From Gordonia sihwensis NBRC 108236 (lineage in GTDB: Bacteria; Actinomycetota; Actinomycetes; Mycobacteriales; Mycobacteriaceae), in assembly GCF_000333035.1 (NCBI RefSeq), contig NZ_BANU01000010.1, forward strand, positions 1 through 64,000: DNA of 64,000 bases. Reading direction: 5' to 3'. The notes under the pieces are model-generated. The model was given only the letters and a program-made list of their open reading frames with translations. It did no database searches and was not told where the DNA came from. Positions 41,487 to 45,819 of this stretch are shown piece by piece. How positions within the stretch are numbered: the first letter of the stretch is position 1; each line of letters begins with the position of its first letter. The position numbers were made by a program, and so were the translations under genes.

Positions 41487-41576
41487 GGGTGGAGCCTTTC
41501 CGGCGCCGCGGCCGCGACGCCTGACACTGCACCGCATTATGCCCACGTTGCCATCGAGCGATGGCGAGGAGGTCTC

Positions 41577-42914
41577 GTGAGCGCGTTGACGCCGCCCGAC
41601 GCGGCGATGTACTGGCGATCGTTGACCACGGCGAACGATCAGTTCCTGTTGTATGCGTTCGACGCGCCGGACGACCCGTCGGCCGATCCGTTCGCCGAAC
41701 TCGCGCCCCGCGCGTCCGAGATCGCAGACCTGCGTCTCGGCGTCGCCCGCGTGCCGTGGGATCTCGGGTATCCGCGCTGGCGCGCGTCGCGTCCCCGTCC
41801 CGAGCAGTTCTGCCGACACCCGGCCACCACGTGGACCGAATGCCTGGCCGCCCTGGGGCACCTCATGGCGAGCGGCGACCGCACCGCCGGGCCGCTGTGG
41901 CGGTTGCATCTGTTCGAATCGCTCACGGATGTGCCCGACGCCGACGGCCCGGCCAACATCGTGGTGCTCCAGATCTCGCATGCGCTCGGTGGCGGGCGGC
42001 GGGTCTCGGCGATCGCACGACGGTTGCTGACGCAGGGTCGGCCCGACCGGGTGCGCAGCGGCGCGCCGCTTCCCTCCGCCGTGGCCTCCGCAGTGGCCGC
42101 CGCCGCGGGCGCCGCGGCCATCGTGCCGCGACTGGCGACCGGAACCGTCGCCGGTGCGGCCGCGTGGATGCTCCGATCCCGTTGCGGCACAGCGGAAACA
42201 CCGGGCGCCGACGTGATCGAGCCGACCGTGCTCAATCGTCCGGATCCCGGCGCGGTGGAGCTGCGGACGGTGACGCTGCCGCGATCGTCGGTCCGGCGGC
42301 TGGGATCCTCGGTCACCGTCGGGGCACTGGTGGGGCTGGCCGAGGTGCTCGGGCGCTTCGGCGGGACGAGTCCTGACGGCCGGGTGGTCGCAGAGGTCGC
42401 CGTCTCCCGTGAACCGGCGACCCGAGAACCGGCGGCTCGGCGCCGGAACGACTTCTTCTCCGTCGGCGTCGATCTGCGCCCCGACCTCGATCGGCGTGCT
42501 CGATCCGGGGCGATCGCGAGCCAGCTCGACGCGGCGCGGCGGCGAGACCGTTCTGCGGTGGCCCGCGTCGACCGCTGGGCGGCCGACCGCGCTCCGTCGG
42601 TACTGGGATCGCTGGCCGTCCGGCTCTCGTCCGCGGCGCCGGTCCCGGAGCGGGTGGCGGGTGCGACCGTGGTCTCGTCGGTGAACCGCGGCGACGGCGA
42701 CCTCCGGCTGGCGGGCGGTCGAGTGCTGTTCACCGCGGGGTTCCCGGCCTTGTCCGCGGTCCACGGACTCACCCACGGCGTGCACGGAATCGGTGCGACG
42801 GTGACCGTGTCGATCGCCGCTCGCGGAACCGCCGCGCGGACCGTCGACGAGTACGCCGCAGCGGTGCGCGCGGCCTTCGGAGGAAGCCCGGCGACGCCAC
42901 CTTCGCACGCGTAG
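41577..42914 (+). CDS. WS/DGAT-like acyltransferase family protein with altered active site
   Basis: A 445-residue protein. N-terminal MYWRSLTTANDQFLLYAF and a C-terminal block (ATVVSSVNRGDGDLRLAGG, FTAGFPALSAVHGLTHGVHG) resemble wax ester synthase/diacylglycerol acyltransferases. The catalytic HHxxxDG motif reads SHALGGG: the second His stays but the first is Ser and the Asp is Gly. Activity is therefore uncertain. The GTG at 41577 has a strong GAGGAGG site. It is divergent from the thiolase-crotonase fusion and is followed after 9 bp by gabD1. Confidence 0.68.
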   Translation: MSALTPPDAAMYWRSLTTANDQFLLYAFDAPDDPSADPFAELAPRASEIADLRLGVARVPWDLGYPRWRASRPRPEQFCRHPATTWTECLAALGHLMASGDRTAGPLWRLHLFESLTDVPDADGPANIVVLQISHALGGGRRVSAIARRLLTQGRPDRVRSGAPLPSAVASAVAAAAGAAAIVPRLATGTVAGAAAWMLRSRCGTAETPGADVIEPTVLNRPDPGAVELRTVTLPRSSVRRLGSSVTVGALVGLAEVLGRFGGTSPDGRVVAEVAVSREPATREPAARRRNDFFSVGVDLRPDLDRRARSGAIASQLDAARRRDRSAVARVDRWAADRAPSVLGSLAVRLSSAAPVPERVAGATVVSSVNRGDGDLRLAGGRVLFTAGFPALSAVHGLTHGVHGIGATVTVSIAARGTAARTVDEYAAAVRAAFGGSPATPPSHA

Positions 42915-44298: not shown

Positions 44299-45225
44299 TC
44301 AGGAGCGACCGGGGTACCGGCTGACGGCGTCGTCGGTCGGGTCCCCGGGAAGCTGCGGCCGCGTCGGTGTCTGCGGGGTCGCCGCGGTTCCGGCGCGGGT
44401 GAGGCGCTTGGGGAGCCGGTCGGCCAGCCCGCCGATCGGTGCCACGGACGCATTGAGCAGTTCCACGACCTCGTTGAGGTGGTCGACGGTCTCCTGCATC
44501 GCAGCGAGATTCGGCGGCAGCGAGGCGAGCGTCTCGGACAGCTCGGTGAACTTGTCGAGCGGTCCGCCCGGAGCGATCAGCTTCTCGAGAGCACCGTCGG
44601 CGCCGAGCAGTTGATCGAGCAGGCCCTCGTCGCCAGCGGCGCGGTCGAGCACGCCGCCGGGCTGGGACAGCTTCTCCAGCACACCGTCCGGAGCGGTCAG
44701 CTTGTCGACGATGCCGCCCTCGGATGTCAGCCGCTCGAGGATGCCCTCGTTCTCGGTGAACTGGTCGACCACGCCGCCTTCCCGGGTGAGCCGGTCGAGC
44801 GGTCCGTCCTTCGCGGCCAGCCGCATCAGGATCCCCTTCTCGTCCGTCATCTGGTCGAGCAGGCCACCGCGCTCGGTCAGCTTCTCGAGCAGACCGTCCG
44901 GAGCGGTGAGACGGTCGATCACGCCGCCCGGCTGGATCAAGCGGTCGAGGGGGCCGCCGTTGGCCAGAATCCGGCCGAAGGGGCGGTCGGGGCTCAGCAG
45001 ATCGGCCACCTGGCTGAGGATCGCGAGCGGAGCCCGGACAGTGGCGATCTCGCTGTTCTCGTCGATTCCGAGCATCGAGTTCACCTCGGACTCGATGCTC
45101 TCGGCGGTGAGCCGCGCGACGTTGACGACCGACTCGACCGCGGAGAGTGCGATACCGGCCGTGGCGAAGCCGAGACGCAGTGGCAGCTTGACGGCCATCC
45201 GGACTTCGTTCGCGCTGCTATTCAT
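44299..45225 (-). CDS. Decapeptide-repeat protein, function unknown
   Basis: A 308-residue protein in three parts. Residues 10-70 form a mildly hydrophobic, amphipathic helical region (LPLRLGFATAGIALSAVESV). Residues 90-229 are fourteen uninterrupted 10-residue repeats with consensus (G/D/E)-G-aliphatic-aliphatic-(D/E)-(R/K/Q)-(L/F)-T-x-x, for example GGVIDRLTAP and DGLLEKLTER. A helical segment (AAMQETVDHLNEVVELLNAS) and a Pro/Thr-rich tail follow. There is no signal peptide. The exact periodicity suggests a solenoid or a lipid-surface helix. I do not recognise a named family. It is convergent with gabD1, and the HhH-GPD gene lies 21 bp upstream on the same strand. Confidence 0.85.
   Translation of the reverse strand: MNSSANEVRMAVKLPLRLGFATAGIALSAVESVVNVARLTAESIESEVNSMLGIDENSEIATVRAPLAILSQVADLLSPDRPFGRILANGGPLDRLIQPGGVIDRLTAPDGLLEKLTERGGLLDQMTDEKGILMRLAAKDGPLDRLTREGGVVDQFTENEGILERLTSEGGIVDKLTAPDGVLEKLSQPGGVLDRAAGDEGLLDQLLGADGALEKLIAPGGPLDKFTELSETLASLPPNLAAMQETVDHLNEVVELLNASVAPIGGLADRLPKRLTRAGTAATPQTPTRPQLPGDPTDDAVSRYPGRS
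44539..44958 (-). repeat. Fourteen tandem 30-bp units encoding decapeptide repeats
   Basis: The array codes for residues 90-229 of the repeat protein. Period is exactly 30 bp with no insertion or deletion in 14 units. The units differ in sequence, so the array is old and under protein-level constraint rather than a recent DNA expansion. A degenerate further unit (DRPFGRILAN) may precede it. Confidence 0.85.
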
Positions 45226-45246: not shown

Positions 45247-45819
45247 TCATTTCCTGGCAGCCGCCTTCGCGGCCTTCTTGAAGTCCCGAACCCGCTGGAG
45301 CGACTCCGGATCGGTGACATCGGCCACGGAACGGTATCCCTTGCGGCCGTAATCACCGGTCACCTTGGTCCACCCGCGCGGTTTCACGTCCAGTTGCTTG
45401 GCGAGCAGGGCCACGAAGATCTTGGCTTTCTGCTCGCCGAAACCGGGCAGCGCGCGGACACGCCCGAACAGTTCTTCGCCGGTACGGGCAGTGGTCCAGA
45501 GGGCGGCGGTGTCGCCGTCGTACTCGTCCACCACCGTTCGGGCGAGCTCCTGGATCCGGCCGGCCATCGACCGCCCGTAGCGGTGGATCGCGGGCGGAGT
45601 GGCGCACAACTCGGCGAAGGCCTCCGGGTCGGCGTGGGCGATCGCCACCGGATCGAGGGTGCCGAACCGCTCCAGGATCTTCGCCGGTCCGGCGAACGCC
45701 CGTTCCATCGGAAACTGCTGGTCGAGCAGCATGCCCGTCACGAGTGCGAAGGCGTCCGTGGAGAGGAGTGCGTCCGCGACCGGGTCCTGGGCGATCTGGA
45801 GGTCAGCCATGCCGCTCAT
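45247..45819 (-). CDS. HhH-GPD family base-excision repair-like protein
   Basis: A 190-residue protein of an actinobacterial HhH-GPD subgroup (TIGR03252 type). DPVADALLSTDAFALVTGMLLDQQFPMERAF is typical, and the helix-hairpin-helix reads VRALPGFGEQKAKIFVALLAK. The C-terminus is Lys/Ala-rich. No [4Fe-4S] cysteine loop is present. It probably binds or cuts damaged bases, but the lesion is unknown. The start may be ATG at 45819 or 45810. Confidence 0.88.
   Translation of the reverse strand: MSGMADLQIAQDPVADALLSTDAFALVTGMLLDQQFPMERAFAGPAKILERFGTLDPVAIAHADPEAFAELCATPPAIHRYGRSMAGRIQELARTVVDEYDGDTAALWTTARTGEELFGRVRALPGFGEQKAKIFVALLAKQLDVKPRGWTKVTGDYGRKGYRSVADVTDPESLQRVRDFKKAAKAAARK

Follow-up and report, generated by a model that had tools for sequence, protein, structure and literature searches.

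A tandem decapeptide-repeat protein of Gordonia sihwensis and its uncharacterized actinobacterial family, a candidate alpha-repeat scaffold

Results

Decapeptide-repeat gene of G. sihwensis

The DNA of Gordonia sihwensis NBRC 108236 analyzed here (64,000 nucleotides of contig NZ_BANU01000010.1, referred to as the window) carries an ORF at 44299..45225 on the minus strand, which starts with ATG and encodes a decapeptide-repeat protein of 308 amino acids. This ORF had been proposed in a first-pass annotation made from the sequence alone, and it was borne out by the reading frame, purifying selection, and family searches. The N-terminal helix (residues 1–60; 45046..45225, minus strand), which contains a conserved P-x-R, was assigned from the alignment, hydropathy, and a structure model that places a helix at residues 4–51 with low confidence (pLDDT 46–56). 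The annotation had described it as amphipathic; a helix was indeed modeled, but its amphipathy was only moderate, the best 18-residue moment being 0.38 (0.32–0.43 in seven proteins). No clear transmembrane segment was found in the N-terminal part, where the best 19-residue hydropathy was 1.52.

A degenerate "unit 0", DRPFGRILAN (residues 80–89; 44959..44988, minus strand), was recognized in the alignment and as a six-residue helix in both structure models, and it reads mostly [DE]RPxGR across the family. It is followed by fourteen 10-residue units (residues 90–229; 44539..44958, minus strand), assigned from repeat statistics and both models, and by a long C-terminal helix (residues 230–277; 44395..44538, minus strand), assigned from the alignment and the model, with the family motif V-x-P-[LI]-x-x-[LI]-x-x-[RK]-[LI]-P at its end. 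The Pro-rich tail that had been noted at the C-terminal end is present (residues 278–308; 44302..44394, minus strand); it evolves fast and is probably disordered, as judged from its pN/pS and a pLDDT of about 40 (39–41).

The decapeptide array is far beyond chance. As had been claimed, its fourteen units follow one another without a gap, and Gly occupies position 2 in 14 of 14. The repeats had also been called exact, which holds for their length but not for their letters: self-identity was 0.35, 0.35, and 0.42 at lags of 10, 20, and 30 residues, respectively, as against 0.01–0.11 at the remaining lags between 1 and 29. Under the same unit rule, the longest run of units was 14 in the real protein and at most 3 among 5000 shuffles, and a run of 14 occurred in one of the 343 stop-to-stop frames of 100 or more codons in the window, the other 342 having runs of 0–2. 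Tandem Repeats Finder detected no DNA repeat at the array, which suggests that the repeats are of old origin.

The pattern of pN/pS across its four regions suggests a genuine gene. Against the near relatives at loci L001 and L003, pN/pS was 0.05–0.06 in the repeats, 0.00–0.02 in the C-terminal helix, 0.20–0.24 in the N-terminal part, and 0.49–0.74 in the tail, and the repeats and the C-terminal helix are thus under strong purifying selection at this distance. Against the more distant L030, L008, and L034, the corresponding values were 0.16–0.39, 0.08–0.53, 0.45–0.72, and 0.80–1.08. The tail had the highest value in every pair, and the repeats were the most or second most constrained region in all five. 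Many unit-specific residues are invariant over 37 aligned rows from three genera.

Genes adjacent to the decapeptide-repeat gene

The gene for an HhH-GPD-type base-excision repair protein (45247..45819, minus strand; Pfam HhH-GPD, and TIGR03252 for the ortholog at L001) lies 21 nt upstream on the same strand. A WS/DGAT-like gene (41571..42914, start approximate, plus strand), which is convergent and not part of the protein, was followed across loci by tblastn. No promoter or terminator pattern was found near the decapeptide-repeat gene, the promoter pattern used being a poor fit for actinobacteria. Because gene calling based on GC3 overlooked the family gene in places (e.g., at L102, L104, and L106), adjacency was counted by tblastn. 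Among the 36 loci of Gordonia, Williamsia, and Jongsikchunia, HhH-GPD was near the family gene in all 36 (at L027, the match covered half its length in one tblastn search), an MFS gene in 23, and a convergent downstream aldehyde dehydrogenase gene in 4.

The WS/DGAT-like neighbor, to which the first-pass annotation had drawn attention, was retained in 34 of these 36 loci (26/27 Gordonia, 8/8 Williamsia, and 0/1 Jongsikchunia), being absent at L025, which lies on a short contig, and at L035 of Jongsikchunia. No WS/DGAT-like match was found at the 29 distinct loci where other genera carry the family gene; 33 loci were searched, among which L113 is filler, L148 is the phoP locus, L116 and L117 repeat L118 and L119, and L128 is partly masked. 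Among the loci searched, the association is limited to one lineage. The WS/DGAT motif is HHxxxDG. The WS/DGAT-like protein of the window, for which Pfam gave nothing at E up to 1, reads HALGGG (HALGDG in the L008 copy), a sequence that may point to a divergent or inactive acyltransferase. Five of six relatives passed the curated cut-off, with WS_DGAT_C for L001, L015, and L034 and WS_DGAT_cat for L034, L036, and L027; L008 passed for neither.

Other lineages have other neighbors. In genus g23, the homologue of genome G255 (profile E 9e-88) is back to back with a gene matching Mycobacterium tuberculosis PhoP (3r0j, E 4.2e-142), on which ground we take g23 to be probably Mycobacterium. PhoP was found within about 1.5 kb of the family gene in 16 of the 19 g23 loci L078–L096, with HIT near the family gene in place of PhoP at L078 and L080 and neither at L082. 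It was also present within the 10–11 kb locus in three of the four loci L109–L112, and there was no PhoP match in 14 loci from families f2 and f41 (L097–L099 and L118–L128). The family gene was divergent from phoP where examined. In the genome to which the window belongs, the gene for a PhoP orthologue with 76% identity is grouped with a histidine kinase gene and a HIT gene on another contig, without the family gene. In two 3.3-Mb g23 genomes (L151, L152, and L153), phoP and the decapeptide gene have decayed side by side, and the remnants have in-frame stops or lie in pieces in three frames. Scanning neighbors with Pfam and NCBIfam identified HhH-GPD, the two-component pair, HIT, SMR, HemW, META, glutamyltranspeptidase, a methyltransferase, and others. 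No neighbor constant across genera was found among the genera looked at: HhH-GPD accompanies the gene in Gordonia, Williamsia, and Jongsikchunia, phoPR-HIT in the inferred mycobacteria, and other genes elsewhere.

Distribution of the family

A scan of named genomes yielded the 36 loci described above (27 Gordonia, 8 Williamsia, and 1 Jongsikchunia; best identities, 88–89%), and 36 of the 37 Gordonia genomes searched had a match, the exception being G027. Profile searches gave matches in 48 of the 298 genomes searched for the order, in 45 of 394 for the class, and in 10 of 296 for the phylum. Within the class set, the matches of G451 and G469 were confined to the C-terminal helix, at E 5e-4 to 7e-4, and the two phylum matches outside the class, G707 (E 6e-4) and G795 (E 1e-5), were short and weak. 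In g23, 292 of 297 genomes matched, including all 275 with a completeness of at least 90% and a contamination of at most 5%; two of these 275 matches, singled out for inspection by their weak scores, are broken remnants. In the same taxonomic family, no match was found in the six g24 and four g27 genomes listed in the order search. The decapeptide family is thus much wider than the window suggests.

Tsukamurella tyrosinosolvens has two paralogs. The second (L115) is short, with 4 units; DUF3618 and PE-PPE-domain genes lie nearby, and HhH-GPD is about 1.6 kb away. Further stretches of G000 and G004 (E down to 6.5e-11) have repeats with in-frame stops and were left out of the gene count. Elsewhere in the G. 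sihwensis genome (L146, contig C64), RNGPLTRLA is repeated with in-frame stops, perhaps as a 30-bp DNA repeat outside the called genes.

Mobile elements were considered as an origin and rejected. There was no match in 50,697 phage records, and none of the 51 viral-contig stretches that fit the pattern encodes a relative. PHROG gave two weak matches (E 0.003 and 0.059). Plasmid matches comprised two Tsukamurella replicons and four weak records of Sulfitobacter, Thioclava, and Pseudosulfitobacter (E 0.005–0.01), which we take as chance repeat matches.

Anatomy of the family and composition of the units

Alignment of 29 diverse members revealed a common plan, namely a helix at the N-terminal end, decapeptides in variable number, and a helix at the C-terminal end, along with a [DE]RPxGR-like unit 0, V-x-P-L-x-x-L-x-x-R-L-P in the C-terminal helix, and four invariant columns. 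By this sequence comparison, the membership of the window protein, which has the three-part plan, the Gly-2 decapeptides, and the C-terminal motif, is well supported.

Array length differs between members by whole units, and the longest gapless runs across the family range from 2 to 23 units. Among matches no weaker than E 1e-8, a run of 14 was found in 38 of the 43 distinct Gordonia proteins (19 in four and 22 in one) and in 8 of 8 Williamsia proteins, and a run of 23 in Jongsikchunia. Runs were 13–14 in four proteins of genera g25, g28, and g29, 4–18 in four of g26 and Tsukamurella, 5–19 in 19 of g23, and 2–15 in 11 of f41. The arrays of L005, L006, and L007 have exactly five units (50 residues) more than the 14-unit form, and the block MTDExGxLMR...TENxGILxR occurs in them twice in similar form.

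Hydrophobic residues occupy unit positions 3, 4, 7, and 8, and charged residues occupy positions 5 and 6. In 588 distinct units from 90 proteins, which are related by descent and hence not independent, Pro occurred 131 times at position 3, 149 times at position 10, and nowhere else; the unit filter fixed position 2, limited positions 3–7, and left positions 1, 8, 9, and 10 free. Position 4 was Leu, Val, or Ile in 93% and position 5 was Asp or Glu in 88% of units, both being favored by the filter.

Searches of family, structure, and literature resources

The first-pass annotation had been unable to place the repeat in a known class, and our searches agree with it. For the window protein, neither Pfam nor NCBIfam gave a family at E up to 10, no convincing relative was found in the PDB by sequence or fold, and a strong match to a characterized repeat family, looked for in Pfam, NCBIfam, the PDB, and Foldseek, was absent. 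The 29 diverse members gave only weak, scattered matches, with a best E of 0.00097 for Pfam and 0.0032 for NCBIfam. In Pfam, these were BAT in six members (best E 0.0015), Zn_ribbon_Com in four (0.00097), DUF7310 in four, and RHA1_ro05818_N in three; in NCBIfam, they included AAC_3_II in six (0.0049) and an MCE family in one (0.054). Of the alpha-solenoid Pfam models (TPR, HEAT, ANK, PPR, and LRV), only LRV_2 matched, in one of the 29 members (E 0.026) and not in the window protein. For the window protein and the 29 members, no phasin or lipid-inclusion coat family was present among the Pfam and NCBIfam matches, and no beta-solenoid family among the Pfam matches. The C-terminal helix took 22 of the 26 PDB matches of the family profile (best E 0.00012, to a designed protein); judging by the entry names, these are presumably mostly coiled coils.

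Literature searches on decapeptide or 10-residue alpha repeats returned nothing on a decapeptide-repeat family among the matches listed. Searches by locus tag likewise returned nothing on the family among the matches listed, which says little for the tags other than Rv0756c, as these may be wrong. The family is uncharacterized and actinobacterial.

Structure models

AlphaFold2 was run on the whole protein with 24 sequences (run 1) and on residues 60–275 with 37 sequences (run 2). As their alignments overlap, the two runs do not count as independent; features were read from the best of five models in each. In run 1, helices at residues 4–51 and 61–76 are followed by one six-residue helix in each of units 0–13, at ten-residue spacing, then by a helix at 222–234 that starts in unit 14 and by another at 236–269. 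Run 2 reproduced this register, with one helix of seven residues and with unit 14 merged into the C-terminal helix. Units 1–13 were thus modeled as a helix over positions 3–8 and a 4-residue loop, and no strand was present in the best model of either run.

Disorder in all models, which had been considered at the outset, was not seen, and confidence was moderate (mean pLDDT 60.9 and pTM 0.22 in run 1; 61.7 and 0.21 in run 2). Within the repeat block, pLDDT was 64–78 in run 1 and 57–73 in run 2, five-model averages being 53–61 and 52–62, respectively; in run 1, residues 71–90 and 251–260 had 70–75. Foldseek returned no chain for VIA-align from the first model and one PDB match, at E 9.2, from the second.

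Helix capping favors Pro at N1, Asp or Glu at N3, and Gly after the helix end. The proline pattern fits capped short helices, with Pro at N1, Asp/Glu at N3, and Gly after the helix. One short helix per unit is well supported by the models, and the proline statistics also fit this prediction.

Discussion

The reading that we tentatively favor, although we put it just short of an even chance, is that the protein, with its family assignment and local helices as above, is an elongated alpha-repeat scaffold of capped short helices, perhaps membrane-peripheral and oligomeric. Each unit is predicted to be one short amphipathic helix, in which position 3 is N1, where Pro is allowed, Asp/Glu is at N3, positions 3, 4, 7, and 8 form a hydrophobic face, and positions 5 and 6 form a charged one. 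The invariant Gly would close the helix and turn the chain, and the unit helices may stack side by side into an elongated cytoplasmic rod, the pTM of the models being only 0.21–0.22. From their sequence patterns, the C-terminal helix may oligomerize the protein, and the weakly amphipathic N-terminal helix may place it at the membrane's inner face. The regular acid-base face could serve as a docking or spacing scaffold.

One alternative, which we consider unlikely, is a coat on lipid inclusions or the membrane, on which the short helices would lie unstacked and flat with the hydrophobic face down, in the manner of a many-footed phasin. The two faces of each unit suit it, as does the WS/DGAT-like neighbor in 34 of 36 Gordonia, Williamsia, and Jongsikchunia loci. 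However, none of the 29 loci of other genera has this neighbor, and the WS/DGAT-like gene is convergent and not co-transcribed with the family gene, HhH-GPD and, in 23 loci, MFS being kept there too. In addition, the main text of a lipid-inclusion proteome (PMC10699116) carries no locus tag beginning with MSMEG_58, which weighs little.

The 11-residue amphipathic repeats of perilipins and apolipoproteins form long continuous helices. The decapeptides resemble them in their short period and in having a charged face opposite a hydrophobic one, but their helix is interrupted every 10 residues by an invariant Gly; if the helix were continuous, each 10-residue unit would shift the hydrophobic stripe round by about 80 degrees.

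Equally unlikely, in our judgment, is a flexible spacer, that is, a largely disordered chain whose helices form transiently and which does no more than connect the N-terminal helix to the C-terminal one. The mean pLDDT and pTM, the variation in unit number between species, and the lack of a PDB fold match are in its favor, and the prolines are also compatible with transient helices in a flexible chain. On the other hand, the repeats rank first or second in constraint in the five pairs, and unit-specific residues are invariant across three genera. Moreover, in run 1 the repeats had higher pLDDT than residues 1–60 and the tail, residues 71–90 and 251–260 being similar to the repeats.

An accessory of PhoPR that acts on the sensor or on envelope stress, with the position in Gordonia being a later move, seems improbable. 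The frequent proximity of phoP in L078–L096 and L109–L112 and the joint breakage of both genes in two genomes of the inferred Mycobacterium point toward it. Against it, the family gene is divergent from phoP and not co-transcribed with it where examined, the G. sihwensis genome has phoP, the histidine kinase gene, and HIT together without it, and the 14 loci of f2 and f41 have no PhoP match. Furthermore, in M. tuberculosis, according to the data tabulated in PMC4038636, one PhoP ChIP peak is common to Rv0756c and phoP, and Rv0756c changes only −1.24-fold between H37Rv and the phoP deletion. The beta-solenoid with one turn per two units, which the first-pass annotation had suggested and which the short, regular repeat with its Gly and its aliphatic residues would suit, is hardly credible, as the best models of the two runs show no strand, the proline pattern of the 588 units fits helices, hydrophobic positions 3, 4, 7, and 8 do not alternate, and no such family appeared among the Pfam matches.

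Returning to the scaffold of capped, stacked helices, the decapeptide array shares tandem helical units and a regular hydrophobic face with alpha-solenoids of the TPR, HEAT, ANK, and PPR class. We know of no alpha-solenoid with a single unit as short as ten residues. The difference lies in the unit, which here has ten residues and one six-residue helix, whereas a PPR unit has 31–36 residues (as stated in PMC11514114). It is quite possible, though somewhat less likely than not, that the family represents an undescribed helical tandem-repeat class, with a capped six-residue helix per ten residues, stacked into a rod that acts as a cytoplasmic scaffold, a unit shorter than that of any alpha-solenoid of which we are aware, and a place among the core proteins of Mycobacterium and its relatives. 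If the local reading is true, an undescribed alpha-repeat with a ten-residue unit would be a compact test case for the folding and design of repeat proteins.

The decapeptide protein is near-universal yet unstudied in the genus inferred to be Mycobacterium. In M. tuberculosis, Rv0756c sits beside phoP, as given for this locus in PMC4038636 and PMC8912993, and the g23 homologue occupies the same phoP-adjacent position, from which we infer that Rv0756c is orthologous to the family gene. The Gordonia gene differs in that it adjoins HhH-GPD, away from phoPR, and in its units, which are mostly 14 with Thr at position 8, as compared with mostly 5 or 12 with Leu or Thr in the inferred mycobacteria. 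On the orthology suggested by position, our finding would assign Rv0756c to a family and provide it with a domain plan and predictions to test. The sources among the matches listed give Rv0756c in tables or as an insertion site and describe neither a repeat nor a function there. An IS6110 copy is recorded at Rv0756c:phoP in M. bovis B (PMC8912993), and Rv0756c appears in a gene list from drug-resistant isolates (PMC3552959). A further IS6110 copy, listed inside Rv0756c in one clinical isolate (PMC9637126), hints that the gene is dispensable in that isolate.
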